From Petroclostridium xylanilyticum (GTDB taxonomy: Bacteria; Bacillota; Clostridia; SK-Y3), in assembly GCF_002252565.1 (NCBI RefSeq), contig NZ_NPML01000013.1:62001-126000 (forward strand): a stretch of DNA of 64,000 nt. The letters run 5' to 3'. Every line of letters starts with the position of its first letter. Positions within the stretch are counted from its first letter, which is position 1. The notes under the pieces were generated by a model. That model was not told the DNA's origin, ran no database searches, and worked only from the letters and a program-made list of their open reading frames with translations. Both the position numbers and the translations under genes were made by a program. Positions 18,978 to 64,000 of this stretch are shown here, one piece after another.

Positions 18978-19025
18978 CCCAAAAAAGCATAAGTTATGAA
19001 TCTTTTAAAGTCTACATCTATGTTC

Positions 19026-19112: not shown

Positions 19113-19173
19113 CTTATTTACTTTATCTGCCATGTGAAATCATTATCAGTAAATATATAATAAAATATTAATA

Positions 19174-19235: not shown

Positions 19236-19270
19236 CTATCTTAATCTCAATCTGAATCTAAGTCTTAATT

Positions 19271-24141: not shown

Positions 24142-24162
24142 TATTATCAATTATCAACTCAT

Positions 24163-24245: not shown

Positions 24246-24281
24246 CTGCCATTATTTAATTTTCATTGCTCTTTATCAATA

Positions 24282-26156: not shown

Positions 26157-26267
26157 ATATTATATCAATAACCAGTATAAAATTAAAAAATAAATTAATG
26201 CAGTTATTGATGAAATTAAGCAACTTTAAATCATAATATTTACTTTAAAGTTGCTTAATTATAAACT
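26157..26267 (+). repeat. Two-stem dispersed element, copy 2
   Basis: Stem 1 ATCAATAAC/GTTATTGAT and stem 2 AAGCAACTTTAAA/TTTAAAGTTGCTT, with the conserved AAATAAATTAATG between the arms of stem 1. Both stems carry paired changes relative to the other copies. It lies about 75 bases upstream of the NAD synthetase start, in the same direction. Confidence 0.75.
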
Positions 26268-43796: not shown

Positions 43797-43903
43797 TTAT
43801 ATCGATAACCAATATTAAAGTTAAAAATAAATTAATGTAGTTATCGATGAAATTAACCAACTTTAATATCTAAATATTTAGTTTTAAAGTTGGTTAATTA
43901 TAT
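43797..43903 (+). repeat. Two-stem dispersed element, copy 3
   Basis: Stem 1 ATCGATAAC/GTTATCGAT and stem 2 AACCAACTTTAA/TTAAAGTTGGTT. It starts 30 bases upstream of the fucU ATG, in the leader but on the opposite strand, and abuts copy 4 in tandem, sharing the TTATAT junction. Confidence 0.75.
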
Positions 43904-44007
43904 TGATAACGCACTTTAAAATTAGAAATAAATTAATGTAGTTATCAATGAAATTCGCGAAGTTTGTATTAAGGAAATATTGAATTTTAAACTTCGCTCA
44001 TTATAAA
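43899..44007 (+). repeat. Two-stem dispersed element, copy 4
   Basis: Stem 1 ATTGATAAC/GTTATCAAT and stem 2 GCGAAGTTT/AAACTTCGC. Almost identical to the inverted copy at 2158-2268 apart from a paired change in stem 1. With copy 3 it fills most of the gap between fucU and the aldo/keto reductase gene; 44008-44135 shows no gene. Confidence 0.75.
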
Positions 44008-46324: not shown

Positions 46325-47844
46325 TATCCCACCTCACTTTTTATAAAAGTATCCTTTAGTCTTTCATAGATCTCCAGATAGATTTCATAGTATTTTTTAT
46401 AGGTTTCATGTACTTTCATATCCGGTTCATGTACCCTTGTAATGTGAATAGTTCTATTTACTGCTTCTTTAAAATCACGGTACATGCCGGTTCCAACCCC
46501 GGCAAGAATTGCAGCACCCAGAGTCGTTGCCGTATCAGATGTCGGCACCTTAATAACCTTTCCGGTTACATCGGATTTGATCTGCGTCCACAGCCTGCTG
46601 TTTGCAGCCCCTCCCATGGCAACCAATTCATCCACCTTTACGCCTGCTTCTTCTGCAGTCTTTAAGTTGTGCCGAAGTGCATAGGCACATCCTTCCAGTG
46701 TAGCACGTATCATATGAGCCCTTGTCTTGCTGTAATCAAGTCCGAAATAAACGCCCTTTGCATGTTTGTCCCATATGGGCGATCTTTCTCCTGCCATGTA
46801 GGGTAAGAATATTAGTCCGTCTGAACCGGCTTTGACCTGAGAAGCTTCATCATCCATTATCTTAAATGAATTGATACCGGTTAATTGTTCCTTCTGTATT
46901 TCATAAGCTCCCAATTCCTGCCTGAACCACTTTAAGGTTCCTCCGCCACCAATGGTACCACCTTGCAGCAGCCATAAATCAGGAACCACGTGAAAGCTTA
47001 AGATTAATTTGGGATGGGCCAGGGCCTGACCTACACATATACTCATGCCTCCTGCCTGGCCTCCCTGTTCCTGAGTCTGTCCAATTTCAATAACACCGGC
47101 TCCAAGGGTACCACATGCTGCATCCAACCCTCCTGCCACAACAGGAGTTCCTACTGCCAACCCTGTCGCTCCCGCTGCCTCTTGGGTTACTTCACCAACT
47201 ACCTGATGGCAGGCAAATATTTCAGGGAGTTTTTCCAATGGAATCTCCAGTTCATCACAAAAATCCTCTTCCCATTTTCCTGTTTTCATGTCAAATACGT
47301 GGAGACCATACCCCTGGCAAATATCCTGCGTCATCATACCAGTGAGCTTAAAAACGATATAACTGTTACTCTGCAGGAACTTAAAGGCTTTCTTATAAAC
47401 GTCAGGTTCGTATTCTTTAAACCAGAGGATTTTAGGCGTGGAATAGGTCGGCTCAAAAGGGTTTCCACTGATTTCAAAAATCCTATCGTGTCCATACTTC
47501 TCAAGTACTTTTCTGGATATTTCCGACGCTCTTGTATCCATCCATATGGGCGTATTGTACAGTACATTGCCCTCTTTATCCACAGGAATTGCTGACCAGC
47601 TCTGTCCATCTACTCCTATGCCTGCTATTTGCTTCGGGTCAATCTTCGCCGTGTTAATTGCCTCACGGACTGCATCACAAATTCCTTTCCACCATTCCTG
47701 CGGATTTTGTTCTACATATCCAGGTGCCGGATAGTAGACAGGATATTCCTTTGTGGATTGGGCAATGACTTTACCTTCAAGATCAAAGAGCGCTACCTTA
47801 CAGGCTGAGGTTCCAATATCAATTCCCAATAAAAGTTTCTCCAT
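46324..47844 (-). CDS. xylB: Xylulokinase (FGGY family)
   Basis: 506 residues from the ATG at MEKLLLGIDIG (GGAGAG seven bases upstream); an ATG five codons earlier overlaps that site. The FGGY fold shows LGIDIGTSACKVALFD, GVDGQSW, IWMDTRASE (substrate Asp), AGGLDAACGTLGAGVIE and GGAANSRLWTQIKSDVTG. It phosphorylates D-xylulose to the 5-phosphate, or a related ketose or deoxy-sugar. First gene of an operon with a Zn dehydrogenase and an aldo/keto reductase. A LacI-type operator lies about 230 bases upstream. Confidence 0.9.
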   Translation of the reverse strand: MEKLLLGIDIGTSACKVALFDLEGKVIAQSTKEYPVYYPAPGYVEQNPQEWWKGICDAVREAINTAKIDPKQIAGIGVDGQSWSAIPVDKEGNVLYNTPIWMDTRASEISRKVLEKYGHDRIFEISGNPFEPTYSTPKILWFKEYEPDVYKKAFKFLQSNSYIVFKLTGMMTQDICQGYGLHVFDMKTGKWEEDFCDELEIPLEKLPEIFACHQVVGEVTQEAAGATGLAVGTPVVAGGLDAACGTLGAGVIEIGQTQEQGGQAGGMSICVGQALAHPKLILSFHVVPDLWLLQGGTIGGGGTLKWFRQELGAYEIQKEQLTGINSFKIMDDEASQVKAGSDGLIFLPYMAGERSPIWDKHAKGVYFGLDYSKTRAHMIRATLEGCAYALRHNLKTAEEAGVKVDELVAMGGAANSRLWTQIKSDVTGKVIKVPTSDTATTLGAAILAGVGTGMYRDFKEAVNRTIHITRVHEPDMKVHETYKKYYEIYLEIYERLKDTFIKSEVG

Positions 47845-47887
47845 AACATTACTCTCCATTATTACAACTTGTAATTATGATGTGTCA

Positions 47888-47962
47888 TAGTGGGGAGTGG
47901 ACAGTGGGGAGTGTTTTTTGAACTTGATCGGTAATTTACTCCCCACTCCTCACTCCCCACTA
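47888..47962. repeat. CACTCCCCACT hairpin
   Basis: Two arms containing AGTGGGGAGTG and CACTCCCCACT twice each pair over about 25 bp, with a 25-nt loop. It sits between the xylulokinase start and its upstream operator. A single arm recurs at 21934-21958. Confidence 0.65.
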
Positions 47963-48075
47963 CTTCGCACTTTAAATATAAAATGACGCAGGTAACAGAT
48001 TAATCAAAAAATTTATTGCCTATTGCCTGCTATAATTGATTATTAACGTTAAATATAGTATCTTTTCTTTATAGC

Positions 48076-48086
48076 TAAACGTTTCG
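48076..48086. promoter_or_regulatory. LacI-type operator upstream of the xylulokinase operon
   Basis: TAAACGTTTCG, the same 11-mer as at 49016 and (inverted) at 50070. AAACGTTT is its palindromic core with the central CG of LacI-family sites. It lies 20 bases behind the aldolase stop and about 230 bases before xylB. Confidence 0.65.
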
Positions 48087-48105
48087 TTTTAAGCCGTAAA
48101 GAAAA

Positions 48106-48978
48106 TTACACACCCCTGATTTCATCTGCTAGTCCACTACAGCTACAAAGACGAATTTTCTCCCTCACTACTTTCTTTACAGCTTCCTTTGCTGCCCCCA
48201 TATATTTTCTTGGGTCGTTTTCCTTGGGATTACTTCTAAAACACTCCTGTATCGCTTGAGCCATAGGAAGCTTAAGCTCTGTCGCAATATTTATTTTACA
48301 GATTCCTCTTTTAACAGCCTCTTTGATGCTGTCATCCGGAACTCCTGATGCTCCATGGAGAACCAGAGGTAAATCTACAAGATTTCTTATAGCAGATAAT
48401 CTTTCAAAATCCAGTTTCGGCTCTCCCTTATATACGCCATGGGCAGTACCAATGGCAATTGCCAGCGTATCGATACCTGTAGCTTCTACGAAATCCTTGG
48501 CTTCTTCGGGTACGGTAAAGGTAGCTTCCCGCTCATCCACCGTCATATCGTCCTCGGTACCGCCAATCCTCCCCAATTCTCCCTCAACAGCTACTCCGGC
48601 AAAATGAGCCATCTCAACCACTTTTTTTACCAGAGCAACATTCTCTTGATAGGGAAGCTCTGCACCATCAATCATTACGGAAGTGTAACCATTTTGAATA
48701 CACTGGACAATCATTTTATAAGATGGACAATGGTCTACATGAAGAGCAACAGGAACATCATAGATTTTTGCTGCCTCTTTTACACAAGCTGCTACAAAAG
48801 GAATTCCGGCATGTTTTAAAGTACCCGGAGTCGTCTGAATGATAACAGGTGCCCTTTCTTCTGCCGCCCCCTCTACTACAGCCTGGATCGTCTCCATGTT
48901 ATGGACATTAAAAGCGGCAATCGCTACACCTTTTTCTTGTGCCTTTCGTATAAAAGACAATGGGTTTATCAGTGACAT
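48106..48978 (-). CDS. Class II fructose/tagatose-bisphosphate aldolase
   Basis: 290 residues. Zinc ligands are visible in VALHVDHCPSY, GTAHGVYKGEP and LVLHGASG; the catalytic Asp is in the HVDH motif. AAFNVHNMETIQAVVEGA at the start and VKRGICKINIATELK are family segments. It splits fructose- or tagatose-1,6-bisphosphate, or a related ketose phosphate, into two trioses. It stands between its LacI regulator and the xylulokinase operon. GGGGGGA precedes the ATG. Sequence alone cannot separate GatY/KbaY/Fba specificity. Confidence 0.92.
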   Translation of the reverse strand: MSLINPLSFIRKAQEKGVAIAAFNVHNMETIQAVVEGAAEERAPVIIQTTPGTLKHAGIPFVAACVKEAAKIYDVPVALHVDHCPSYKMIVQCIQNGYTSVMIDGAELPYQENVALVKKVVEMAHFAGVAVEGELGRIGGTEDDMTVDEREATFTVPEEAKDFVEATGIDTLAIAIGTAHGVYKGEPKLDFERLSAIRNLVDLPLVLHGASGVPDDSIKEAVKRGICKINIATELKLPMAQAIQECFRSNPKENDPRKYMGAAKEAVKKVVREKIRLCSCSGLADEIRGV

Positions 48979-49015
48979 ATGATATCAATCCCCCCTCTAA
49001 GCTTATATATAACTT

Positions 49016-49026
49016 TAAACGTTTCG
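49016..49026. promoter_or_regulatory. LacI-type operator in the aldolase promoter
   Basis: TAAACGTTTCG, followed by C as at the third site, 38 bases upstream of the aldolase ATG and just behind the LacI stop. Confidence 0.7.
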
Positions 49027-49047
49027 CATTGCAGTTAAAAAAATTTT

Positions 49048-50061
49048 TTATCCTGTAAGCTTACTAACTGACTCTTTTAGCAGAATCTCGGTCTTTAGCC
49101 GATAAATTGCAGGAAAATTGCTTCGATCTCCTTTTAGCCTTTTTAATAAAACCTCTGCAGCAGTTTCACCAATTTGCTGCATTGGCTGGACAACAATGGA
49201 AAGAGGCGGCTTAACGATCTTGGCCATTTGTATATTATCAAATCCAATGATAGACAGCTCCTCAGGAACCTTTATGTCCCTTTCATTAATTGCCATGATA
49301 GCGCCTAGGGTCATCTCATAGTTGGTAACAAATACAGCCGTAGGCCGGGGATTATTATCTATTAATTCTAAAAGAAGCTTATACCCGCTTTCTATTTTAT
49401 AATCACCATATTTAATCAGACTGCGGTCAACTTCCATTGCATAATCTTCATGCACCCTTAAATACCCTTTTAGTCTCTCCTGCGCAGTGTAAATATTCTC
49501 AGGACCGCTAATAATGCCTATTTTTTTATGCCCCCTCATAATAAACTGCTCCGCTGCATCATAAGCCGCATTAAGATTGTCGGTTAATACTACGTCACAG
49601 CTAATGCCTTTTAACATCCTATCTATCAGCACAATGGGAATATTTTTTTCAATAGCTCCTTTTATGCATTCAATGTTTTTGCCGGAGGGGACCATGACAA
49701 TACCATCTACCAGCTTATTGATAAGAAAATCGAATTTTTCCTTTTCCAGCTTTTCATCTTCACGATAATCACAAAGGATGGCACTATATCCATTTTGTAT
49801 AAGTATGTTTTCAATGTTGGATACTATACTTGTAAAAAATATGTTTTCCAGACTCGGGATCAGAATTCCTACCGTCATGGTACGGTTAGTCTTCAGCCCC
49901 CGGGCGATTTCATTAATCTTATAATCCAGAACCTTTATCGCTTCTTCAATCAGTTCCTTATTTTGCTCCAGGACATTACCGCCATTTAGATATTTTGAAA
50001 TGGTTGCAATAGAAAGTCCTGTATATTTAGCTACATCTCTTATTGTTGCTATTTTTCTCAC
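49048..50061 (-). CDS. LacI family transcriptional regulator
   Basis: About 337 residues: helix-turn-helix at the N-terminus (ATIRDVAKYTGLSIATISKYLN), hinge helix, then a type 1 periplasmic-binding effector domain (TVGILIPSLENIFFTSIVSNIE, DGIVMVPSGK, VLTDNLNAAYDAAEQFI, ISIIGFDNIQMAKIVKPPLS-like end). It probably represses the aldolase and xylulokinase genes; identical operator motifs lie before both and before itself. The GTG start overlaps the GAGGTGA ribosome site. The ATA nine bases on gives the canonical M-ATI-RDVA start and has normal spacing (see findings). Confidence 0.93.
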   Translation of the reverse strand: MRKIATIRDVAKYTGLSIATISKYLNGGNVLEQNKELIEEAIKVLDYKINEIARGLKTNRTMTVGILIPSLENIFFTSIVSNIENILIQNGYSAILCDYREDEKLEKEKFDFLINKLVDGIVMVPSGKNIECIKGAIEKNIPIVLIDRMLKGISCDVVLTDNLNAAYDAAEQFIMRGHKKIGIISGPENIYTAQERLKGYLRVHEDYAMEVDRSLIKYGDYKIESGYKLLLELIDNNPRPTAVFVTNYEMTLGAIMAINERDIKVPEELSIIGFDNIQMAKIVKPPLSIVVQPMQQIGETAAEVLLKRLKGDRSNFPAIYRLKTEILLKESVSKLTG

Positions 50062-50069
50062 CTCTATCG

Positions 50070-50080
50070 CGAAACGTTTA
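50070..50080. promoter_or_regulatory. LacI-type operator overlapping the lacI-family leader
   Basis: CGAAACGTTTA, the reverse complement of the other two sites, nine bases upstream of the GTG. Binding here would give autoregulation. Confidence 0.7.
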
Positions 50081-50155
50081 GTTCTGATTTTATTTTATCA
50101 GTAATTTATTTTTTCGTCAATTATTTTTTTGATGGTGGCGGACATGTCAAGGGGG

Positions 50156-50247
50156 CGTGTCAAGGGGACGGGGGGCGTGTCAAGGGGACGGGGTTATTGA
50201 CAACCTATAGATTAGGAGGTGTTGTCAACAACCCCGTCCCCTTGACA
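50156..50247. repeat. GTCAAGGGGACGGGG repeat with long hairpin
   Basis: Two to three head-to-tail copies of a GTGTCAAGGGG(A/G)CG unit are followed by an inverted copy. The arms TGTCAAGGGGACGGGGTT and AACCCCGTCCCCTTGACA, extended by TTGACAAC/GTTGTCAA, give a 26-bp stem with one mismatch. Confidence 0.7.
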
Positions 50248-50563
50248 GTCCAAGTATTTCGGTTACTATTAATGCCTGTTCAGGCTTTACAACCGGTTCT
50301 GTATCATTTAATATGCACTCAATCCAAAGTCTAGCTTCCATATCGGCGGCACTTTCCTCACTGCCATCATAGAAATCAACACCCTTGGCGTCCAACGAAG
50401 GAGTGGTGGTATACAGTCTGCCAAATTCAACTCCGTTGATGCGCAGTCCATCCATCATGTCCGCTCCGGCTTTGGTCCCACATAAGGTTGTTCTGGCCTC
50501 TCCAGTCTGCAGTGTATTAAGCGCCCAACTGGATTCTAGTATAATGGTTGCGCCATTTTCCAT
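50225..50563 (-). pseudogene. Gfo/Idh/MocA oxidoreductase, C-terminal fragment
   Basis: About 105 residues of the C-terminal beta-sheet half of a sugar oxidoreductase (ENGATIILESSWALN, TLCGTKAGADMMDGLRING, VVKPEQALIVTEIL). The NAD-binding half is missing. The last residues run into the CAAGGGGACGGGG repeat, so the natural C-terminus is gone too. Broken at both ends; no function expected. Confidence 0.75.
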
Positions 50564-50567
50564 TGTA

Positions 50568-50622
50568 ATAAATAAAAGACGGTTTTCAAACCCGCCAAAA
50601 CCAGCGAATAGAAAACCGTCTC
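50568..50622 (-). terminator. Terminator after the lone pstB
   Basis: Arms AGACGGTTTTC and GAAAACCGTCT pair perfectly over 11 bp and are followed on the minus strand by TTTTATTTATT. It lies 65 bases behind the pstB stop. Confidence 0.85.
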
Positions 50623-50685
50623 CAGATTTTTATTTGATTATCCTAAATACATATTGCACCTATTTTTAGTTCTCAATTGTTTTTA

Positions 50686-51441
50686 TCATCCAAACCTACC
50701 CGTAATGTAGTCCTCCGTACGTTTATCATCAGGATTGCTGAAAATCTTAACCGTCGGGTTATACTCTACCACTTCTCCATGTAAGAAAAATGCTGTATTG
50801 TCCGATATACGCCCTGCCTGCTGCATGTTGTGAGTAACAATTATAATGGTATACTGCTCTTTAAGTTCTGTAGCCAGGTCTTCTATTTTTAATGTAGAAA
50901 TAGGGTCAAGGGCTGATGTAGGTTCATCCATTAGCAACACTTCCGGTTCTACCGCCAAAGCTCTTGCAATACAAACCCTTTGCTGCTGTCCTCCTGACAA
51001 TCCTAAGGCATTCTTTTTTAAATGGTCTTTTACTTCATCCCATATTGCTGCTGCCCTTAAGCTCTTTTCTACAATTTCATCTAATACGGCTTTCTGGGAA
51101 ATACCATGGATCCTTGGACCATAGGCTATATTATCATATATACTCATTGGAAATGGATTGGGCTTTTGAAATACTAATCCCACCTTTTTTCTTAGCTGAA
51201 TTACATCTACATCTTCATATATATTCTGACCGTCCAGTCTTACTTCTCCTGTAATTTTACACCCTTCCACCAGATCATTCATACGATTTAAAGTTTTCAG
51301 GAAAGTGGATTTTCCACATCCGGAAGGACCAATAAATGCCGTGATTTGCCTTTCAGGAATTTCCATATTAATTGATTTTAATGCTTGAAAATCTCCATAA
51401 AACAGGTTCAGATCCTTAATCGAAAATTTCGTATTACTCAT
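50686..51441 (-). CDS. pstB: Phosphate ABC transporter ATP-binding protein PstB, lone copy
   Basis: 251 residues: Walker [10 protein letters not shown] (about residue 33), Q-loop [18 protein letters not shown], signature LSGGQQQR and Walker [14 protein letters not shown], then the switch histidine in [15 protein letters not shown] and [12 protein letters not shown]-like end ([12 protein letters not shown]) are PstB hallmarks. It energises phosphate uptake through PstC/PstA. It stands alone on the minus strand, divergent from pstSCAB, which carries its own pstB; the two differ clearly, so this is an old duplicate. Confidence 0.95.
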
Positions 51442-51962
51442 ATTTACACTCCTTTTGCTTTTCCTATATTATATTCAATCAACCATTTATTCCTAAATAT
51501 ATTCAATTGCATCAAAAATTCACCTTATCAATTATATTACATATCACTTTTTGGATTTCATTATAAGTTCATTAAAATGTGCATGCAATTTTCAATAATT
51601 TTAAAATACTGCAAATAGATCGCTGCACTTTCATTTAATAAGCACATAAGACTTTATAATATGTCCAATACTTAAAATAACTACTGCTAAATGTGGGAAA
51701 TCTCTTAGGTCAATACAATGTTTTACCAATCCTTATGTGAAAATTATGCTCCTAAATCTAATTTCATATAGTATGTATTATCCACATCAGGTGGTTCCGA
51801 CAAAATAAATATATAACTTCCGCTTATATCAACGTAATTATACTTCAATATTGTATACTTGTAAAGTTTTTTAATACTACTTCCCTCATTATTCTTATAT
51901 GGGTTGTAGTGCCAAATATTCAAATATTTAAATGCTCATCTTTATATATCGTCTGTTTAAAT
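51442..51962. other. Long divergent spacer between pstB and pstS
   Basis: AT-rich DNA with no open frame of coding character. It should hold the promoter of the lone pstB; no confident -35/-10 pair or second PhoP-type box was recognised. Confidence 0.5.
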
Positions 51963-52001
51963 TTAACATAAACTTAACAAACTATTAATACACACTTAAA
52001 A
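51963..52001 (+). promoter_or_regulatory. PhoP box (four 11-bp-spaced TTAACA repeats) upstream of pstS
   Basis: TTAACA, TTAACA, TTAATA and TTAAAA start at exactly 11-base intervals, the pattern bound by PhoP dimers in Bacillus-type bacteria. A TATTAT-like -10 follows at about 52010, and pstS starts 70 bases downstream. Confidence 0.82.
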
Positions 52002-52071
52002 AAGGACAACTATTATTATGTTTGTCCAATTACTTCAAAAATTAATTTAAAAAATTTAGGAGGTTAATACC

Positions 52072-53019
52072 ATGAATTTAAGAAAATCCGCATTGATTCT
52101 TTTAACTCTTGTCGTGGCAATTTCCTTGGTATTTGCAGGTTGCTCTTCAAATGCTACAAAGACAGAACCAGAAAAAACCGGACCAGCAAAAACAGAGGCT
52201 CCACAGAAAGAAGAACCTAAAAAAGAAGAAATTAGCGGCTCTATCGTATCTCTTGGTTCAACTGCAATGCAGCCGTTGGTAGAAGAAGCTGCAAAGCAAT
52301 TCATGTCTAAGAATCCAAAAGCTCAAATCCAGGTTCAAGGCGGCGGTAGTGGTACCGGATTAAGTCAGGTAAGCTCCGGCGGTGCAAACATCGGCAACTC
52401 CGACGTATTTGCTGAGGAAAAGATAAAAGAAAAAGAAGTGGTTGCTTCATTAGTAGACCATAAAATTGCTGTAGTAGGTATGGCTGCAGTTGCCCATAAA
52501 GATGTTGGTGTTGATAACTTAACAAAACAACAATTAATTGATATTTTCACCGGTAAGATTACCAACTGGAAAGACGTTGGTGGAAAAGACCTTAAGATCA
52601 CTCTGGTTAACAGACCTAAGAGCTCCGGTACAAGAGCAACCTTCAAAAAATATGCTCTTGACGGTGCTGAAGAAGCTGAAGGCATCACTGAAGAATCTTC
52701 CGGAACAGTTAGAAAAATTATTAGTGAAACTCCTGGTGCTATCGGTTATCTTGCCTTCTCCTATTTTGATGATTCAGTAAAGCCTTTAAAATTAGATGGC
52801 GTTGAACCAACAGAAGAAAATGTTATTACCGGTAAATTCCCTATCTGGGCATATCAACACAGCTATACTAAAGGTAAGCCAGAAGGTTTAACTAAAGCAT
52901 TCCTTGACTTTATGATGAGTGCCGAGGTTCAAGAAACAATTATTCCAAAACTCGGATATATTTCTGCCACAAAAATGAAGGTTGAGAGAGACGCAAGTGG
53001 CAAGATTACAAATAAATAA
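52072..53019 (+). CDS. pstS: Phosphate-binding lipoprotein PstS
   Basis: 315 residues with a lipoprotein signal (LVFAGCSS, lipidated Cys24), an Lys/Glu/Pro-rich linker (about 28-55) and a type 2 periplasmic fold. Phosphate-pocket motifs are SLGSTAMQPLVEEAA, QGGGSGTGLSQV and NRPKSSGTRATF, the last with the Ser-Gly-Thr-Arg cluster. GGAGG is ten bases before the ATG. First gene of pstSCAB, directly behind the PhoP box. A partial hairpin after the stop (about 53060-53100) may lower expression of the distal genes. Confidence 0.96.
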   Translation: MNLRKSALILLTLVVAISLVFAGCSSNATKTEPEKTGPAKTEAPQKEEPKKEEISGSIVSLGSTAMQPLVEEAAKQFMSKNPKAQIQVQGGGSGTGLSQVSSGGANIGNSDVFAEEKIKEKEVVASLVDHKIAVVGMAAVAHKDVGVDNLTKQQLIDIFTGKITNWKDVGGKDLKITLVNRPKSSGTRATFKKYALDGAEEAEGITEESSGTVRKIISETPGAIGYLAFSYFDDSVKPLKLDGVEPTEENVITGKFPIWAYQHSYTKGKPEGLTKAFLDFMMSAEVQETIIPKLGYISATKMKVERDASGKITNK

Positions 53020-53169
53020 TCGATTTTAGTACTTAATATTCATATCATAATTGGACTGTACTAAAAGGGGGGCAAATTCAAAATTTTTGCTCCTCTTTAG
53101 TGCTGTCTAAATGGTGGATGTATATTACTTATATACTATAATTATCCACATAAAATAAAATGTGAAGGA

Positions 53170-54132
53170 ATGATTATATTGATTAGAACAACGAGAGAAA
53201 ACGATAAGGTAAAAGATGTTTCGTCTTTAAACGCCAAATATTATGACACTAAAAATAAAATTGTTGCAAGCATAGGTAAATATTACACTTACTCCTGCAT
53301 TTTTTTTAGTATTATGATTATTACTTTCCTTACCTATTTTATTGCTTCCAAAGGCCTATCGACTTTTTTGAAAGATGGAGTAAGTTTATTTGATTTTTTA
53401 TTAGGAACTGAATGGAAACCGGAACATGAGAATACTCCAAAATTTGGAGCCTTTGCATTTATTTTTGGTTCCTTTGCAGTAACTCTACTGTCTGTATCTC
53501 TCAGTACTCCCTTAAGTGTCGGTGCGGCAATTTTTATGGCAGAAATAAGTCCTAAATCAGGATCTAGGTTTCTACAACCGGTTATTGAGTTATTAGTGGG
53601 AATACCTTCTGTTGTCTACGGCTTTATTGGTTTATCTGTTATTGTTCCATTTATGAGAAATACCTTTGGTGGAACCGGTTTTTGCCTGGCATCCGGGACA
53701 CTTGTTTTGACAATCATGATCTTACCCACTATTACAAGTGTTTCCTATGATTCGCTAAAAGCGCTGCCCGGTGGCCTTAAAGATGCCTCTTATGCCCTTG
53801 GAGCAACAAGGTGGCAAACCATTTACCGAGTCTTAATTCCAACCGCTTTGCCCAGCATATTGACTGGGGTTGTTCTTGGGATGGCACGTGCTTTTGGAGA
53901 AGCACTCGCAGTACAAATGGTTATAGGAAACGTGCAAAGACTGCCAAATTCTATTTTTGACTCAATAAGCACACTTACCAGCATTCTTACTTTGGAAATG
54001 AGTAATACAATCGCAGGGACAACATATAATAATGCATTGTGGTCCATGGCTCTTATACTGCTTCTGATGTCATTCATCTTTATCTTTATCATAAGAATTT
54101 TAGGGAAAGGAAGTAAGTTAAATGAACGTTAA
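53170..54132 (+). CDS. pstC: Phosphate ABC transporter permease PstC
   Basis: About 317-320 residues, six membrane segments, with the PstC pattern FGAFAFIFGSFAVTLLSVSLSTPLS, spread over residues 95-120, and the ATPase-contact loop DASYALGATRWQTIYRVLIPTA. It builds the phosphate channel with PstA. The ATG overlaps the AAGGA ribosome site, so the TTG at 53179 is the more likely start. Ends overlapping pstA by 11 bases. Confidence 0.95.
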   Translation: MIILIRTTRENDKVKDVSSLNAKYYDTKNKIVASIGKYYTYSCIFFSIMIITFLTYFIASKGLSTFLKDGVSLFDFLLGTEWKPEHENTPKFGAFAFIFGSFAVTLLSVSLSTPLSVGAAIFMAEISPKSGSRFLQPVIELLVGIPSVVYGFIGLSVIVPFMRNTFGGTGFCLASGTLVLTIMILPTITSVSYDSLKALPGGLKDASYALGATRWQTIYRVLIPTALPSILTGVVLGMARAFGEALAVQMVIGNVQRLPNSIFDSISTLTSILTLEMSNTIAGTTYNNALWSMALILLLMSFIFIFIIRILGKGSKLNER

Positions 54133-55006
54133 GGTAACCGATAAAATTGCTACAATAATATTCTATACAATTGCAATCGTTATTACGTTAATATTAGTTG
54201 GCTTATTGAGTTTTATCCTTGTAAAGGGTTTGTCCGGCATATCATGGGGTTTTCTGACAAAACCGCCCGAAAATATGAAAGCTGGCGGTGGAGTTGGCCC
54301 ACAAATATTTAATTCATTTTTCCTGCTTTTTCTTACCATGCTCTTTACTGTTCCGGTTGGTATTGGCGGTGGAATATATATGGCCGAATATTCGAAACCA
54401 AATATTGTTACTAATATAGCAAGACTTGTTATTGAAGTTTTATCTTCTCTTCCTTCAATTGTGGTAGGGTTATTTGGTTTACTGATTTTTGTTCAAAAGA
54501 TGGGGATGGGATTCTCTTTATTTTCCGGGGCCTTAGCCCTAATGATATTCAATCTCCCTTTAATGGTCCGTATTACCGAACAATCTTTGAGGGCGGTACC
54601 GGTAGAACAAAAGGAAGCAAGTCTTGCAATGGGTATTTCCCACTGGAAAACAATTGTATCTATCATGCTCCCTATAGCCCTTCCAGGGATCATCACGGGA
54701 ACAATATTAACAGCCGGAAGAGCATTTGGTGAAGCTGCTGCACTAATGTTTACTGCAGGAATGAGCTCCCCACCTCTGGATTTTACAAATTGGAACCCAC
54801 TATCAGCAAATTCACCTATAAACCCTTTTAGACCGGCTGCAACCCTTGCTGTTCATATCTGGAAGGTTAATAGTGAAGGTCTGACCCCCGACGCCAAACA
54901 AATCGCTGCCTCAGCTTCAGCAGTTCTTATTACATGTGTATTGTTTTTTAATTTATTATCACGATTGGTCGGAAAATTGATTTACAAGAAATTTACAGCT
55001 GCATAA
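54122..55006 (+). CDS. pstA: Phosphate ABC transporter permease PstA
   Basis: 294 residues with six membrane segments, GIGGGIYMAEYSKPN, the EAA-like loop KEASLAMGISHWKTIVSIMLPIALPGI and FGEAAALMFTAG, all PstA features. It pairs with PstC, whose gene it overlaps by 11 bases, implying coupled translation. pstB follows after 35 bases. Confidence 0.95.
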   Translation: MNVKVTDKIATIIFYTIAIVITLILVGLLSFILVKGLSGISWGFLTKPPENMKAGGGVGPQIFNSFFLLFLTMLFTVPVGIGGGIYMAEYSKPNIVTNIARLVIEVLSSLPSIVVGLFGLLIFVQKMGMGFSLFSGALALMIFNLPLMVRITEQSLRAVPVEQKEASLAMGISHWKTIVSIMLPIALPGIITGTILTAGRAFGEAAALMFTAGMSSPPLDFTNWNPLSANSPINPFRPAATLAVHIWKVNSEGLTPDAKQIAASASAVLITCVLFFNLLSRLVGKLIYKKFTAA

Positions 55007-55041
55007 CTTATTTTTATAGAGAGTATTCTTAGGAGGATAAT

Positions 55042-55830
55042 ATGGTTACTCATAATAATATTTCATTTGCTGAAAAGGATATTGCTATTGAAACACGGAA
55101 TCTAAATATATACTATGGTGCCAAGCATGCAATTAAAAACCTTAGCATGCAAATTAAAAAGTTAGATATTACGGCCTTTATTGGTCCTTCAGGATGTGGA
55201 AAATCCACCTATCTGCGTGCCCTGAATAGAATGAATGATTTAATACCGATTGCTAAAACTACAGGAGAAATTTTATTTGATGGACAAAATATTTGTGACA
55301 AAAATATAGACCTTGCAAAAATCCGGCAAAAAATTGGGATGGTATGGCAAAAACCCAATCCATTTAATAAGTCAATTTACGAAAACATCGTATTTGCACT
55401 TAAGTATTATGGAATCAAACAAAAACACGTACTAGATGAAATTGTTGAAGATAGTTTGAAAAAAGTAGCTTTGTGGGATGAAGTCAAGGACCGACTGCAT
55501 AAATCCGCATTGGCATTATCCGGCGGGCAGCAGCAAAGGCTTTGTATTGCCCGTGCAATCGCTACCAAGCCTGAGATTTTGCTTCTGGACGAACCTACTT
55601 CTGCTCTAGACCCCATTTCATCTGCAAAAATTGAAGAACTGCTTTTTGAGTTAAAAAAAGATTATACAATTATTATAGTTACCCATAATATGCAACAAGC
55701 CGGAAGAATCTCCTCTTATACCGCTTTCTTTTTAATGGGGGACCTTATTGAGTATAATGAAACAAATGTGATATTTACCAACCCAGTTATAGATAAGACC
55801 AATGATTATATTATGGGACGATTCGGCTGA
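55042..55830 (+). CDS. pstB: Phosphate ABC transporter ATP-binding protein PstB, operon copy
   Basis: 262 residues: Walker [10 protein letters not shown] (about residue 45), Q-loop [18 protein letters not shown], signature ALSGGQQQR, Walker [14 protein letters not shown] and switch histidine VTHNMQQ. It has a 12-residue N-terminal extension compared with the lone copy. AGGAGG precedes the ATG. Fourth gene of pstSCAB; a stem (AAGTCACCC/GGGTGGCTT, about 55838-55870) follows and may end the transcript. Confidence 0.95.
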
Positions 55831-55942
55831 TATCTGAAAAGTCACCCTCTCCTTCTTAATGGGTGGCTTAAAAAATATACATGTAAATTTTTTAGGTTAT
55901 ATTTTCCAACTGTTATTCTTTTTACAAAGGAGACTCGTGATA

Positions 55943-58033
55943 ATGCGCATAAGAAAATACTTTCCAAATATCATAAGATTTACAAACAAATTAAAAGAAC
56001 GGCATACTAAAATTTTACCTAAAAAGGGTACTGATATCATTAAACTTGAAGGCATTATAAAGTTTCTAAATAATTTTAAACTGAAGAATCTTTTATTGTC
56101 TTGTTTTCTATTAATTTTAATTATTCCTCTTACCCTGATACTCTCTTTTTCGTTTGTAGAAAACCGGAGTATTCTGGCAGGTGAACTATCGAAAGCACTT
56201 TCTGATACTAATAAATTAACTGCTCAACTAATCGGCAGCAATATTAAAGATATCAATGCAATCATTACTGAGATATTAACAGATACTGAATTTGAACAAA
56301 ATATATCTGAACTGAACCAAGATAAGACAAATATGAAAGCTCATAACTGGGTTTTGAGCAGAATGCGTTCATTCAGAGCTAAGGCTATCAGCACAGGAAT
56401 TGAAACAATCATTGTTACTACAAACGATGGTGAAAAGCATTATGGAGAACTATTAAAATCCCCATTTTATGATAAACCATTTAAAGGGTCTGAAATTGAA
56501 AGAAAGCTTAGTCAAATACCAGCCGAAAAATTAATCTTCCCTTTTGAATATAATAATGAAAAATATTTGGTTTTGGGTATAAAAACTCCTGTAATGTACA
56601 TACATATTTACAAAAAATTAGATAATATTAGAAATTTATATAATAACATAGATTTTAAAAATGGAGAAACAGCTATTATCGCCGACGATTATACTTACAT
56701 TATTCCACCTTCTAAAATTAATCTGGACCATCTGATGAAGTTTGTACTAACAGAAGGAACGGGATATTTTATTGATAAATTAAACAACGGCGATTATGTA
56801 GTCTCCTACAATCAAATTCCTGATACTAAATTTTATTTTATTTCTACCGTACCGCTTAACAATGTTTATAAAAAATCCAATGAAGTGACAATAACACTTT
56901 TATGGGTATGCGGCATATCAGTTGCTGTTGCTTTTTTAATCGCTTACTTAATATCCAATTTAATCGCCAAACCGGTGTTTAATTTGCAGAAACTAATGCA
57001 GATGGCTGAAAAAGGTGACCTAAACATCCAGGTAGAGTTGTCTGGAAAAAGCGAACTTGCAATTTTAAGTAAAAGTTTTATGAAAATGTTAGAAGAATTT
57101 GTAGAGCTCATCAAAGAAATTAGTAATGATGCAAATATCTTAAATGAGCATGCTGTAAAAATGGAAAGCATCGCAAATAACGCTCGAACAATTTCTGAGC
57201 AAACGGCTATTGCTTATAATGAACTTGCAATAAGTACTCAAAAACAAGCAGATGATGCGCTCCAGTGTTTTGAAAATGGCAGAATATTGGAAGAAAAAAT
57301 AACAAATGTAATTAACTTTACTTCTACGATTAAACAAGATATATATAACATGGTAAATATGATTAATAATGGCCATACAAATATGGAGCTGCTTGTAAAT
57401 TCATCCAATAACACCATAGAATCATCTAATAAAGTATTGAATAGTATTTCAATGCTAAAGAATAATACAACCCAAATCAATAAAATTACCAAGTTAATAA
57501 AAAATGCTGCCGAACAATCCAATCTTCTGGCACTCAATGCAGCTATTGAAGCCGCAAGAGCTGGTGAGCACGGCAGGGGCTTCGCTATTGTAGCAGATGA
57601 AATGAGAAAACTATCTTTAGATATTCAGGGTTCCACTAAAGAAATTGAAAACATTTTAAACTATATTTTGGATAACGTTCAACAAGTACATGATTACTCC
57701 AAAACTTCCAACCAGATTATTCATGAACAAATTACGCTGATTAAAACTTCAAATGAATTATTTAAACAAATAAACAATTTATCTACTATTACTATCAATC
57801 ATGTATCAGGAATCGACCAGATGATGGAAGAAATGAGCTCCAGCAATAGTAACACTTATCATGCCATTAAAAATATTAGTACTTTTGCGGAAGAAAACGC
57901 CGGAACTACACAGCATCTTTCAGCAAGCATAAGTGATTTTACCAATTTTATCAATGAATTATACAATCATGCAAAAGAACTTGAAAATCTGTCTATGACA
58001 TTACTACATTCTGTTAATCAGTTTAAAATTTAA
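55943..58033 (+). CDS. Methyl-accepting chemotaxis protein
   Basis: 696 residues from the ATG after AAAGGAGA; the frame is open further upstream without a ribosome site. Membrane segment at about 45-70 ([18 protein letters not shown]), extracellular sensor of about 240 residues, second segment near 315-335 ([17 protein letters not shown]), HAMP domain, and a long signalling coiled coil with the hairpin tip [26 protein letters not shown]. It reports a stimulus to CheA/CheW. It stands directly behind pstSCAB, so a link with phosphate is possible but unproven. Confidence 0.93.
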
Positions 58034-58104
58034 AATACAATTATAATAGTTTTGAATAAACGTCTTCTTAACCCTGATGTGGCTTTTCCTATACAGAGAT
58101 GTTT

Positions 58105-58138
58105 TACGACCGGCTTTAAATGAGAAAGCCGGCCTTGT
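58105..58138. terminator. Hairpin behind the chemoreceptor gene
   Basis: CCGGCTTT/AAAGCCGG with a seven-base loop, between convergent genes. No T-tract, so termination is uncertain. Confidence 0.5.
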
Positions 58139-58156
58139 ATATCTGCTCTTGAGATA

Positions 58157-59512
58157 CTATACTGCCCTTTGCCGGCGGAACTGGCTGTTGTAAAGGTGAT
58201 GGTAAAACCCTCTTTTATTCAGCAGTTCATGATGGTTACCCCTTTCAATGATCTCTCCGCCGTTAATGACCAGAATTTGATCCGCATTCTGGATGGTACT
58301 CAACCGATGGGCAATGACAAAACTGGTCCGCCCTTTCATCAACTGCTGCATCGCCTGCTGGATGTGCATCTCGGTACGGGTGTCCACATTGCTGGTTGCT
58401 TCATCCAGGATAAGAATGGCCGGGTCGCTGAGAATTGCCCTTGCAATGGTTTGACCCGGCTTTGCTTTCAGGTTGACATTTTTTAAAACAGGAACACCCT
58501 TTTCATATCCAAAATCAACATCCTTGAAAACCACTTCTCCTGATACGTTTTTCATCACTGCAGCATCAGGTACATCATCCAATTCTGGCTTCTGATCCAT
58601 CACTTCAAATACCCGTTCTGCTCCTGCCAGTGCCGACTGGACCATGTTAAACTGATTTGCAATATCGTTGATAGGCCGCGTGAACTGCTTAGCGTAGTTT
58701 AAAAAACCGGCAATCATGCCGACTGTCATCGTTCCCTTCACAGCCATCAGGCCCCCGGCAGCGGCACCCAGTACAAAACTGATGTTGCCCAGGCAGTTCA
58801 TGAGCGGCGGAATGATACCGGACAAGATTTGTGCACGTATCCCTGCTTCATTCAGCCGCCGGTTTACGATTTCAAATTTGCTGATAGCTTCTGCCTCCCT
58901 GCAATATGCTTTTACTACACGCTGTCCCGATATGGTTTCTTCAATATATCCGTTTAATTCTCCCAATTGCTTTTGCTGGGCTGAAAAGTATTTTTTTGTG
59001 ATACGTGCAATCCTTTTCGATAAGAACAGTCCTGCAAGAGTAAAAATCAGAATGAACAGGGTAAGCAAAGGGCTGATCCAGAGCATCATTCCCAGTGATC
59101 CGATAAGTGAAATAATGCTGGAAATCAACTGGGTTGTGCTTTGCGTCAGAACATTGTTTATGTTTTCCACATCGTTGGTCAGGCGGCTCATCAGCTCTCC
59201 GTGCGGACGACTGTCAAAAAAGTGCAGTGAGAGCGTCTGTACTTTGCTGAATAAATCTTTTCTGAGATTTCGTACCGTGTTCTGCGAAATCCCGATCATC
59301 ATATAAGTTTGGATCCATACGGTCAGCGCGCTGATTGCATATACAACCATCAGCACCCCTACATCCGCAGCCAGTTTTGCAAAATCAACATTTCCCTTTC
59401 CCACCATCGTGTCCACTGCAAGTCCAATCAGGTAGGGTCCTGCCAGGGATAGTCCCGTCCCTGTCAACACCATAATAAAAACGACAGCCAATTGCCTCTT
59501 TTGTCCGCCCAA
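58157..59512 (-). pseudogene. ABC exporter half-transporter 2, Walker A to signature deleted
   Basis: An open frame of 451 residues covering the six-span membrane domain (QNTVRNLRKDLFSKVQTLSLHFFD) and part of the ATPase. After KPGQTIA it jumps directly to RAILSDPAILILDEATSNVD: the Walker A, Q-loop and LSGGQ signature (about 120-130 residues) are missing in frame. Walker B, D-loop and the switch His (IAHRLSTI) remain. It cannot bind ATP normally. The true N-terminus was also lost; the frame continues upstream (GGKANNTKETLKRLWHYL) into half-transporter 1. Probably a decayed multidrug/lipid exporter subunit. Confidence 0.85.
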
Positions 59513-59529
59513 ATAGTGCCAAAGCCGTT

Positions 59530-61014
59530 TCAGCGTTTCTTTTGTATTGTTAGCCTTTCCACCTTGTCCATGGACAATCTCTGCTTCTGCCCGCCCGAAA
59601 GGTTTACACCCCGCTGTCCCAGTACTGTGTCGTAGCCATGGGGAAACCCCATGATAAAATCATGGGCCTGTGCTGCTTTGGCGGCCTCTACCACTTCCTC
59701 TTCCGTCGCGTCCTTGCGCCCCCACCGGATATTATCCCGGATGGTTCCCGAAAAAAGGATGGATTCCTGCAAGACCACACTGATGATGCTGCGCAAGTAC
59801 TGAGGTTCCATATCCCGTACGTCCACTCCATCAATGAGTATCCTTCCTTCGGTTGCATCGTAAAATCTGGGTATCAGGTTTATCAGCGTGGATTTACCGG
59901 CCCCGGTAGCACCCAGGATAGCAATGGTCTCGCCTGGATTGGCTGTGAAAGAAACATCCTGGAGTACATCCGCTCCACTTGTACCTTCATAGCGGAATGA
60001 TACATGCTTAAACTCCACTCGTCCTGCTCTGACGACATTTCTGCAAGCTTCTGAATCATTCCCGATATCCAATTCCATATCCAGCACTTCAATGATACGA
60101 TCTGCCGAAGCCTTTGCCCTGGTAGCCGACATCAGCATCATGGTTGACATCATAAGGGCAAACAAGATTTGCATAATATAATTAATTAATGCGATAACAT
60201 GCCCCACCTGTATATTCCCGGAATTGACGCGATAACCTCCAAGCCATGTGACAGCCACCACACCGGTATTCATCAGCAGCATAATGATGGGCATGGTCAT
60301 ACCCACAAACCGGGAGGCTTTTACAGTGATTTCCATCAGTTCATCATTCGCTTTGCCAAACCGGCTGATTTCATAATCGGAACGGACAAAAGCCTTTACT
60401 ACCCTGACTCCCGTCAGGTTTTCCCGCATCACTCTGTTGACCCTGTCCAACTTTTCCTGTACTGCAGCAAACAGCGGAAAACTTTTCGTGATTACAAAAG
60501 CCAATATCCCTATCATCACCGGGATTACCGCCAATGATATGCATGCAAGGACGGGATTGATTGCAACCGCCATCATAATTCCGCCAACAAACAGTAGAGG
60601 TGCGCGGACCAAGATACGCAGCATCATCAGCACAACATGCTGCACCTGCATTACATCATTGGTCAGCCGGGTAATCAGCGATTCGGTTTTTAACTTGTCC
60701 AGATTGGCAAAGGAAAATGACTGAATTTTCTGAAACAGGTCGGCCCTGAGGTCGGTACCGAAATTCTGGGAGGCTATCACGGCAAATATTGTACATCCTA
60801 TACCTCCTGCCATTCCAAGCAAGGCAATCCCCAGCATAAGTGTTCCTGTCTTGATAATATAGCCGGCATCTCGGCTGCCCACACCAATGTTGACAATGCG
60901 GGACATCAGGGTTGGCTGAAGCAAGTCGCAGACTACTTCCACAAGCATCAGAAGCGGAGCCAGCAGCACAGCGGCCCAGTATGGTTTTAAATATAAGGCT
61001 AATCTTTTCATCAA
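59530..61014 (-). pseudogene. ABC exporter half-transporter 1, truncated after the signature
   Basis: 494 residues: six-span exporter domain (ASQNFGTDLRADLFQKIQSFSFAN) and an ATPase with Walker A LGATGAGKST (about 365), Q-loop VVLQESILFSGTI and signature NLSGGQKQRLS. There the homology ends and a 13-residue foreign tail follows, so Walker B, D-loop and switch His are gone. The missing DNA includes its own end and the start of half-transporter 2. Second gene after MarR; the bases are visibly richer in G/C than the pst and chemoreceptor genes beside it. Confidence 0.85.
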
Positions 61015-61030
61015 ACCTATCCTCCAATTA

Positions 61031-61045
61031 ATTCGATATCTAAAT
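61031..61045. promoter_or_regulatory. Second MarR-type site, degenerate
   Basis: ATTCGATATCTAAAT, a one-base-shorter relative of the palindrome upstream of marR, between the MarR and exporter genes. Confidence 0.4.
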
Positions 61046-61055
61046 ATATCTTTAA

Positions 61056-61499
61056 TTAATCTTCCTTGCAGGTCTTCTTCAGGTTTTCCTCCATCTGCAG
61101 AAAAAAACGTCTGATCAGTGCCTTTTCTGTTGTTGTAAAGTTTTTAAAAGTTTCATTTTCCAACTGCTTTAGCTTCATTTCAACAGAAAGCCGGACGTTT
61201 TTTCCTTTTTCTGTAAGATAAACCCTGGATACGCGGGAATCTTCCGGATCCGTCCTTCTCATGATCCAACCGGCCTTCTCCATCCTCTTTAACGTTGCCG
61301 TAATAGTCGCAGGCGTCAATTTACGCCGTTGTGCCAATTCTGTTTGTGTCAGTCCGTCCCTTTCCCATAAGGCAAATAAAACAGGCGGCTGGCCGTAATA
61401 CAGTTCCAATTCTTCCAACAACTCCACTACACGGCGGTGATGCAAACGCGTTACTTTTACAAACAAATCATTCAGGGAATCTTCATCAAACTGTTCCAT
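61056..61499 (-). CDS. MarR family transcriptional regulator
   Basis: 147 residues with the winged-helix core (DGLTQTELAQRRKLTPATITATLKRMEKAGWIMR is the region, recognition helix at about 62-75) and the wing residues DPEDSRVSRVYLTEKG. Helical dimerisation segments lie at both ends. It heads the exporter operon and probably represses it until a toxic ligand binds. A 16-bp palindrome lies 15 bases upstream of its ATG, fitting autoregulation. Intact, although the exporter genes it controls are broken. Confidence 0.92.
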   Translation of the reverse strand: MEQFDEDSLNDLFVKVTRLHHRRVVELLEELELYYGQPPVLFALWERDGLTQTELAQRRKLTPATITATLKRMEKAGWIMRRTDPEDSRVSRVYLTEKGKNVRLSVEMKLKQLENETFKNFTTTEKALIRRFFLQMEENLKKTCKED

Positions 61500-61514
61500 A
61501 TTCCACCTCCAATT

Positions 61515-61530
61515 ATTTAGATATCTAAAT
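61515..61530. promoter_or_regulatory. MarR operator, perfect palindrome
   Basis: ATTTAGATATCTAAAT is a perfect 16-bp inverted repeat just upstream of the marR ribosome site (GGAGG); a related site recurs at 61031. Confidence 0.7.
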
Positions 61531-61592
61531 ATATTTTCATAATAGCACTATAAAAAATCCAAGTCAAGTAATTTATTTCAAACTGCATTTTC

Positions 61593-61913
61593 AGGCATTT
61601 ATATGAAGATATCCGGCTTTCAAATCTATCCAGGCATGTAAATATGAACGCCAATTATCTTTCAGAGTTATTTAAGAAGGAAGTAGGTATCTCCACCAGC
61701 GAATACATTCAAAGTGAAAAGATCGAAGAAGCAAAAAAATTATTAGCTTTCACCAATTATTTGCTGTTGGATATTTCCCTCTGGCTGAACTTCCATGACC
61801 AAAGCCATTTTACCAGGGTCTTTAAGAAAATAACAGGCTTGACACCAAAACAGTACCGGGATAAAAATAGCGCTTTATTAGGTTTCAATATTTATTTGTT
61901 AAATCTATGTTAA
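61593..61913 (+). pseudogene. AraC family regulator, C-terminal HTH fragment
   Basis: The homology starts before the first ATG (HLYEDIRLSNLSRHVNMNANYL) and runs through both AraC helix-turn-helices to GLTPKQYRDKNS. An in-frame stop lies just upstream at 61569, and the sensor domain is missing. No ribosome site. It is the end of a larger regulator, cut when the region was rearranged. Confidence 0.75.
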
Positions 61914-62026
61914 ATCTATGTTTATTAACAAAAAACAGTATAAATTTGGTATTAAATGTGCTAATATTATTAATATTAATATTGTATATGCATACTATTT
62001 TTTTATTTCGAAGGAGGTAAAATACT

Positions 62027-62698
62027 ATGGTAACAAGACACCACTTTGATATGGAACTGGAAAACCTGCATCAAGATCTAATAGACATGGGCAATAAAAT
62101 ACAGGAATCTATCGATAATGCAATTATCGCATTAAAAGATCAAAATATTGAATTAGCAAGGCAGGTATTGAAAAATGATGATGTAATCGATGAATTAGAA
62201 CATAAAATTGAGAGAAAGTGTATCAACCTTATTGCAAGGCAGCAGCCATTGGCAAAAGATTTACGGACAATCAGCACTGCGCTTAAAATTATTACAGATA
62301 TGGAAAGAATTGCAGATCATTCTGCTGATATCTGTGATTTAACCATAAAAATGGCAGACCAAAAATACATTAAACCATTGATTGATATTCCCAAAATGGC
62401 CGAAGCAGCAAAAGCAATGGTTAATCATGCAATCAATGCTTATGTTACCCAGGATGTAGAGCTGGCAAAGAAAGTTTGTAATGATGATGACGAGGTAGAT
62501 AATTATTTTGTTAAAATAGTAGATGAACTTAGAGAAATCATTCGTCAAAATCCAGACACTGTCTATCAAGCTACTAACTTCATTCTAGTTGCAAAATACC
62601 TGGAACGTATGGGCGACCATGCAACCAATATCGGTGAATGGGTAATATACAATGTAACAGGTGTCCATAAAGATCTTAACCATGGAGAAGTGAGATAG
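62027..62698 (+). CDS. phoU: Phosphate signalling regulator PhoU
   Basis: 223 residues, two tandem three-helix PhoU repeats (about 10-100 and 115-210). Metal-site segments E.LEHKIERKC, DMERIADHSADI and YLERMGDHATNI are present. PhoU restrains PstB and the PhoR kinase when phosphate is ample. Usually the last gene of the pst operon, here it is about 6 kb away, behind a chemoreceptor and the broken exporter cluster. AAGGAGG is nine bases before the ATG. Confidence 0.96.
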   Translation: MVTRHHFDMELENLHQDLIDMGNKIQESIDNAIIALKDQNIELARQVLKNDDVIDELEHKIERKCINLIARQQPLAKDLRTISTALKIITDMERIADHSADICDLTIKMADQKYIKPLIDIPKMAEAAKAMVNHAINAYVTQDVELAKKVCNDDDEVDNYFVKIVDELREIIRQNPDTVYQATNFILVAKYLERMGDHATNIGEWVIYNVTGVHKDLNHGEVR

Positions 62699-62707
62699 AA
62701 AATAAAT

Positions 62708-62753
62708 AAAAAAATATACGATACGACGATACGTGGTATCGTATATTTTTTTA
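62708..62753. terminator. Bidirectional terminator between phoU and the DUF378 gene
   Basis: Arms AAAAAATATACGATAC and GTATCGTATATTTTTT pair over 16 bp; T-tracts are present in both directions. Confidence 0.9.
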
Positions 62754-62754
62754 T

Positions 62755-62958
62755 TTAATGATTTCTTGCCGGAACTCTCTCTCTAAATAATAAACTAACT
62801 GTCCAGAGCCCTGCCAAACCTACAATCGTATATACAATTCTACTGAGCATTGCATTTTGTCCACCGAAGATACTTGCTACCAAGTCAATCCCAAATAAAC
62901 CTATTAATCCCCAGTTCAACGCCCCGATGATTACTAAAATTAAAGCCAATCTATCCAT
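62755..62958 (-). CDS. DUF378 family small membrane protein
   Basis: 67 residues with two membrane spans (LALILVIIGALNWGLIGLF and IVYTIVGLAGLWTVSLLF). ALNWGLIGLFGIDLVASIFG is the DUF378 signature. Function unknown. AAGGAG precedes the ATG. Single gene convergent with phoU. Confidence 0.9.
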   Translation of the reverse strand: MDRLALILVIIGALNWGLIGLFGIDLVASIFGGQNAMLSRIVYTIVGLAGLWTVSLLFRERVPARNH

Positions 62959-63033
62959 TTGATCAACTCCTTATAGCTTTTAATTTTAGTATTTCTTAAA
63001 TTTTAATATTAATACATATGAAAAATTTTTATA

Positions 63034-63648
63034 TCAACTTTTTGTACTTTTAATTATTTTTAACCGTGTAAATTCTTCTCTTTCCTTTTCCTCTAATGCA
63101 TTTTGAATATTGGATGTAATTTGCTCGTATCTGGGGATCATAATATTTTTTAGAGCATTCGCCCTCTTTTGTGTCCTTTTAATGTTATTAGCAAGCCTGT
63201 AAACTGCATTTTCAATTTCCGCGAGGTCAACTGTCAGCTTTTTAACCTTATCAAATTTTTTATATGCTTCGTCCAGTGCAGCATTGGTCCGGAAGAAACC
63301 ATACCTGGGTTGAATTTCTTTTTCTTCCATGGTGACCATAGGAATTTCCACTCCCATAATACTCCTGAATTTGATATCAATACCATCTTCGACAGGAATC
63401 GCATGTCCTATCTGCTCGACCGTACTAATTCCTATGGTAATATTGGCAACTTGCAGCGCTTCATAGGCTTCACGGAATGTAACATCTATCTGGGATTGAA
63501 TTTCTTCAGCTTTATCAATCAGCAGCATCATCTCCCGGATGAGTATATTTCTTTTTTTATCCAACAGCTCATATCCCTGTCTTGAAAGCCGCAAAGTATT
63601 ACGTGCCTGTATAAGATTCCCTTTGGTAGGAAATAAGGCGACATCCAT
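63034..63648 (-). CDS. atpD: V-type ATP synthase subunit D
   Basis: 204 residues, a long helical hairpin typical of the central rotor shaft: LFPTKGNLIQARNTLRLSRQGYELLDKKRNILIREM in the N-terminal helix (residues 5-41) and VYRLANNIKRTQKRANALKNIMIPRYE in the C-terminal helix. It links the catalytic A/B head to the membrane ring. Its ATG overlaps the stop of subunit B (TAATG), so translation is coupled. The operon continues past the window edge. Confidence 0.95.
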   Translation of the reverse strand: MDVALFPTKGNLIQARNTLRLSRQGYELLDKKRNILIREMMLLIDKAEEIQSQIDVTFREAYEALQVANITIGISTVEQIGHAIPVEDGIDIKFRSIMGVEIPMVTMEEKEIQPRYGFFRTNAALDEAYKKFDKVKKLTVDLAEIENAVYRLANNIKRTQKRANALKNIMIPRYEQITSNIQNALEEKEREEFTRLKIIKSTKS

Positions 63649-64000
63649 TATAACTCACTCCTTGTGCTGCTGTAAGGCCTGTAGTATTTATCAAGTATTT
63701 TTACATCCACCCTATCCAGTTCTTCTTTAGGTAATATACCAAGCAGCCTCCAACCTAAATCCAAGGTATTATCCATAGACCTGTTTTCTTCCTTGTTCTG
63801 GGAGATAAACTCTCTTTCAAAAGCTTTTCCAAACTCTATATATTTTTTATCAATTTCACTTAACTCATCTTCCCCTATAACCGAAGCCAACGCTCTCACT
63901 TCCTGTACATGGGCATAGGAGGCAAAAAGCTGGTTTGCAATAGCAGGATGGTCTTCCCGGGTAAAACCTTCCCCGATCCCATCCTTCATCAGTCTTGAGA
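63648..64000 (-). CDS. atpB: V-type ATP synthase subunit B (C-terminal part)
   Basis: The last about 117 residues of the regulatory B subunit: SRLMKDGIGEGFTREDH, LFASYAHVQEVRALASVIGEDELSEIDK and ILPKEELDRV. The gene continues beyond position 64000. B alternates with catalytic A in the V1 head. Overlaps the start of subunit D. Confidence 0.95.
   Translation of the reverse strand, partial: SRLMKDGIGEGFTREDHPAIANQLFASYAHVQEVRALASVIGEDELSEIDKKYIEFGKAFEREFISQNKEENRSMDNTLDLGWRLLGILPKEELDRVDVKILDKYYRPYSSTRSEL

Follow-up and report, generated by a model that had tools for sequence, protein, structure and literature searches.

Formation of an ATP site in ABC transporters requires the Walker A, the Walker B and the switch residue of one nucleotide-binding domain (NBD) together with the signature of the other NBD. 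The heterodimeric multidrug exporter YheI/YheH, also known as BmrCD, is composed of two half-transporters and has one degenerate ATP site. Two half-transporters with one degenerate ATP site likewise make up TmrAB, as in the pair of genes considered here, and overexpression of TM287/288 leads to daunomycin resistance, though its natural substrate is not established (PMC7756269). The similarity of YheI/YheH and TmrAB to this pair is lower than that of TM287/TM288 from Thermotoga maritima (PDB 3qf4, 4q4a, 6qv0).

The window, a stretch of 64,000 nucleotides from Petroclostridium xylanilyticum, carries on its minus strand a marR gene followed by half 1 and then half 2 of such an exporter (Table 1). 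A search for members of the family led to contig G003:C76, on which both genes are whole, with ORFs of 576 and 612 aa; its half 1 protein shares 99% identity with that of the window. The intact subunits align individually and end to end with those of the Thermotoga system, half 1 matching TM287 (3qf4_A, E 2e-186) and half 2 matching TM288 (3qf4_B, E 2e-189), and the asymmetry of TM287/TM288 is also reproduced. Thus, intact half 1 has Asp for Glu after the Walker B and Gln for the switch His (IMDDSTS, an MDD Walker B, and IIAQRI), while intact half 2 combines an odd LSQGQ signature (LSQGQRQLL) with a canonical DEATS and switch His (LDEATS and VIAHRL). Most homologues in the 80 loci that were fetched share these degenerate-site motifs, and the pieces that mark the degenerate site in the intact allele are absent from that of the window. 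By these matches the pair is a TM287/TM288-type heterodimeric exporter with one degenerate ATP site, for which ATP-driven drug export is predicted.

Unlike TM287/TM288, half 1 in the window lacks everything from the Walker B onward and half 2 lacks the region from the Walker A to the signature; the complete NBD present on each half in the C76 allele is found on neither half here. The ABC_membrane domain (PF00664) is recovered in both halves (Pfam, 2e-60 and 1e-46), the ABC_tran profile is matched in half 1 over positions 1-119 of 137, and half 2 gives no Pfam match to ABC_tran at all. Half 1 retains a Q-loop between GATGAGKS and LSGGQKQRLS, after which its C-terminus reads MDKVERLTIQKKR*. In half 2 the reading across the gap is ...KAKPGQTIARAILSDPAILILDEATSNVD..., with KPGQ passing directly into TIARAILSDP, and the retained motifs are LILDEATSNVD and VIAHRL. 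A preliminary description of the locus had held that half 1 keeps the Walker A, Q-loop and signature and ends after SGGQKQRLS, with which the ORF and the partial ABC_tran match agree, and that half 2 keeps the Walker B and switch His and has lost the region from Walker A to signature, which the 354 bp missing relative to C76 confirm. The alignment with an intact homologue that it had proposed for defining the deletion ends was made with the C76 copy as reference, and gives deletions of 359 bp and 354 bp.

Table 1. Features of the truncated exporter locus, in window coordinates
Feature	Position	Strand	Remarks
Half 1, TM287-like subunit, truncated	59530..61014	-	TMD and NBD from Walker A to signature; intact allele 576 aa
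Half 2, TM288-like subunit, internally deleted	58157..59512	-	TMD and NBD from IARA to the end; intact allele 612 aa
Walker A GATGAGKS, present in half 1	59890..59913	-	
ABC signature LSGGQ, present in half 1	59587..59601	-	
Walker B LILDEATS, present in half 2	58391..58414	-	
Switch histidine VIAHR, present in half 2	58304..58318	-	
Deletion 1 junction	59569..59570	-	359 bp absent relative to G003:C76
14-bp perfect palindrome TTGTCCATGGACAA, formed by the deletion 1 join	59564..59577	.	about 1 in 1000 random joins
Deletion 2 junction, within the one surviving copy of the direct repeat ACCATTGC	58443..58450	-	354 bp absent relative to G003:C76
MarR-family regulator, intact, identical to the G003:C76 allele	61056..61499	-	
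Perfect 18-bp palindrome TATTTAGATATCTAAATA ahead of marR, a possible operator for MarR	61514..61531	.	
Additional, imperfect copy of the operator-like element, immediately before half 1	61028..61046	-	

Deletion 2 removes 118 codons in frame, and with them the part of half 2 from the Walker A to the signature. In the intact allele the missing segment is flanked by two copies of the 8-bp repeat ACCATTGC, one of which is left in the window; since both copies lie in the same codon phase (T-I-A), the frame of half 2 is kept. Homology of this kind of at least 8 bp accompanies 0.02% (2e-4) of random 300-420 bp deletions in the locus, and deletion 2 is a textbook case of slippage between direct repeats. 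Deletion 1 extends from between LSI and ARA of half 1 into the first codons of half 2, so that the stop of half 1 and the start of half 2 both lie inside it, and takes from half 1 everything from the Walker B through the stop. The loss of 359 bp, a number not divisible by three, shifts the frame, and half 1 acquires an out-of-frame tail of 13 foreign codons, which are half 2 sequence, before it reaches a stop. Half 2 is left without its native ATG and its initial residues. Its reading frame remains open in the upstream direction, but the sole start codon near the join is a TTG, for which no ribosome site is evident. At deletion 1, TTGTCCAT is fused to GGACAAGG; the exact microhomology amounts to 0 bp, and the join is one base away from a CAT/CAT match. 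The suggestion of two microhomology deletions is supported for half 2, with its 8-bp repeat, but not for half 1, and the short homology foreseen in half 2 is indeed a direct repeat at the join, although it is ACCATTGC rather than ATTGCA. Similarly, the claim that both frames stay open applies to half 2 but fails for half 1. The palindrome created by the deletion 1 join (Table 1) was considered as a mechanistic signature of this deletion and dropped, as about one in 1000 random joins match and several features had been inspected; it is probably due to chance.

The deletions could in principle have arisen in the library or the assembly, the genes of the source strain being whole and the gaps stemming from chimeric molecules or mis-assembly. 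Both gaps are close to 355 bp in size, at the protein level the NBDs are repetitive, and the genome is a draft of 41 contigs, all of which would fit such an origin. However, all exact direct repeats in the intact locus fall short of 13 bp, which leaves a k-mer assembler with no sequence that it could collapse at the gaps; the assembly collapse that the preliminary description had entertained thus finds no support in the repeat structure, and collapse at repeats was rejected as the main cause. Furthermore, the joins are clean, the surrounding 32 kb agrees with the other assembly save for ordinary SNPs and a few indels, and the missing pieces are on no leftover contig. A query with the intact locus, in which deletion 2 was represented by 284 of its 354 bp, revealed no second copy and no relocated lost segments elsewhere in the genome. 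An artefact is accordingly regarded as unlikely.

We consider it likely, instead, that a MarR-linked TM287/TM288-type exporter, intact until recently, has been inactivated here by the short deletions of 359 and 354 bp. The pair would have been whole in the recent past, in the form of the near-identical intact allele, and would have been broken by two independent deletions or by one multi-step event, deletion 2 arising by slippage or annealing between the 8-bp direct repeats and deletion 1 by the joining of ends that share little or no homology. The 33-kb contig C76 is colinear with the window contig, with 99.6-99.9% identity over about 32 kb, dropping to 99.0% in the 1.1-kb interval that separates the two deletions, and fewer than 1% of bases differ between the ABC genes of the window and the intact allele. 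Over the approximately 32 kb shared, contig ends aside, these two are the only deletions of more than 24 bp in the window genome relative to C76. Outside the window, at position 76690 on its scale, 280 bp replace 124 bp, and a 121-bp stretch at 51596-51716, single-copy in the window, is missing from C76. The higher SNP density in the pair (0.63% vs about 0.3% in the shared stretch) was discarded as a distinctive feature, as other stretches are similar. Substitutions between the alleles comprise 7 nonsynonymous and 11 synonymous changes in the pair, and 2 and 16, respectively, in its neighbours (Fisher p 0.12). No clear excess of amino-acid changes is thus seen in the pair, and the counts fit a recent loss without proving it. 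Of the two known alleles one is intact and near-identical and the other deleted, and the best reading is that the inactivation is still polymorphic among close strains.

The intact contig (L134, L136, L137) lies in the genome of another genus. The rest of that genome, G003, shows about 68-83% DNA identity to the window, short dispersed repeats aside (window 1-20000 and 46000-64000 searched), and has its own version of the neighborhood on contig C15, in which pstB is followed directly by phoU (C15:26857-29431 matching window 53279-55860 and C15:29499-30528 matching window 62012-63032). C76 is therefore either a stray contig from a strain of the window's species, which is the probable case, or possibly a recent transfer; with either origin its pair is a very close allele. 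Between pstB and phoU the window has a 6-kb block (55861-62011) with an MCP gene, the two ABC genes, marR and an AraC fragment, and since pstB and phoU adjoin in the related genome this block was either inserted in the window or lost there. The AraC fragment (61644-61913, +) encodes an 89-aa AraC-type DNA-binding domain without the remainder of an AraC regulator, and is probably a gene fragment. The ABC genes have a GC content of 0.47-0.49 and a GC3 of 0.52-0.54, against a GC content of 0.368 for the window and a GC3 of about 0.3 for the pst and phoU genes, which fits an acquired operon; the GC-rich exporter operon was thus probably imported. A search for plasmid carriage gave no match. Two TATTTAGATATC elements are present, the perfect 18-bp palindrome before marR and the other before half 1, and together with the upstream position of marR they suggest a self-regulated efflux operon with these elements as candidate operators.

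With half 1 devoid of the Walker B and switch, and half 2 of the Walker A and signature, no remaining half has both a Walker A and a Walker B, so that neither ATP site can form conventionally. The protein pair would hence be unable to hydrolyse ATP, and the genes are presumably under no remaining selection as a pump. Nevertheless, the retained parts are complementary, with an overlap of about two residues (LSI in half 1, TIARA in half 2): half 1 brings a Walker A, a Q-loop and a canonical LSGGQ and half 2 a canonical Walker B glutamate and switch His, the lost parts including the degenerate elements, namely the MDD Walker B and Gln switch of half 1 and the LSQGQ of half 2. This might imply that the fragments fold together as a single canonical NBD, functional in trans and split between two transmembrane subunits, which, if true, would be new ABC biochemistry. 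The evidence is strongly against it and we regard it as extremely improbable. The fragments reside on two different transmembrane subunits and would yield a single NBD per heterodimer, while it takes two NBDs to form ABC sites between them; the 13 residues of the half 1 tail are foreign, half 2, deprived of its start codon and initial residues, is left with a TTG start without an obvious ribosome site, and the arrangement occurs in no homologue among the fetched loci. The shared position of the breaks, too, is partly accounted for by the sequence CCATTGC (T/S-I-A), which occurs three times across the two genes together, each time at a breakpoint, and is thereby shared by three of the four breakpoints. 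The near-equal size of the deletions, their separation by 1.1 kb and their placement at the same aligned NBD position, which we count against the explanation by deletion, amount to a mild coincidence.

Another conceivable role for the truncated halves is an ATP-free one, for instance as a MarR-linked ligand sensor or a passive channel, for which they would have been retained. The transmembrane domains and marR are intact, as such a role would need, but nothing supports it positively, translation of half 2 is likely impaired and no lineage with such forms is seen among the fetched loci; it is very improbable. Homologues in the 80 loci are nearly all full length, and the few partial matches are, as far as seen, without the deletions of the window. 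In its small deletions, one of them between 8-bp repeats, and in the near-identical intact allele found elsewhere, the inactivated exporter resembles pseudogene decay at short repeats; unlike the usual cases of such decay, the two deletions strike complementary parts of two partner genes. This complementary placement looks like a coincidence helped by the shared T/S-I-A codons. Nothing specific was found in the literature on similar deletion pseudogenes of ABC transporters. The locus is most likely a case of ordinary gene decay, a pump that was broken recently rather than a new type of machine, in keeping with the earlier proposal of a relic on its way out: the ATPase domain of each half is crippled, the relatives are intact and the divergence from the intact allele is minimal. 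It offers a clean recent example of the loss of a probably imported efflux operon through two deletions of less than 400 bp, with a near-identical intact allele surviving. Annotation would give two ABC exporter proteins here, neither of which would work as an ATPase alone.

Elsewhere in the window, a 55-bp inverted repeat (62700-62760), 91% self-complementary, lies after phoU and resembles a terminator hairpin. An AT-rich repeat of about 113 bp at 2157-2269 (also at 43896-44007, 43797-43902 and 26159-26217) recurs across the genome, with 41 matches or more, is present in many copies in the related G003, and looks like a dispersed non-coding element. A TPP riboswitch (74.5 bits) is present at 24155-24253 on the minus strand.
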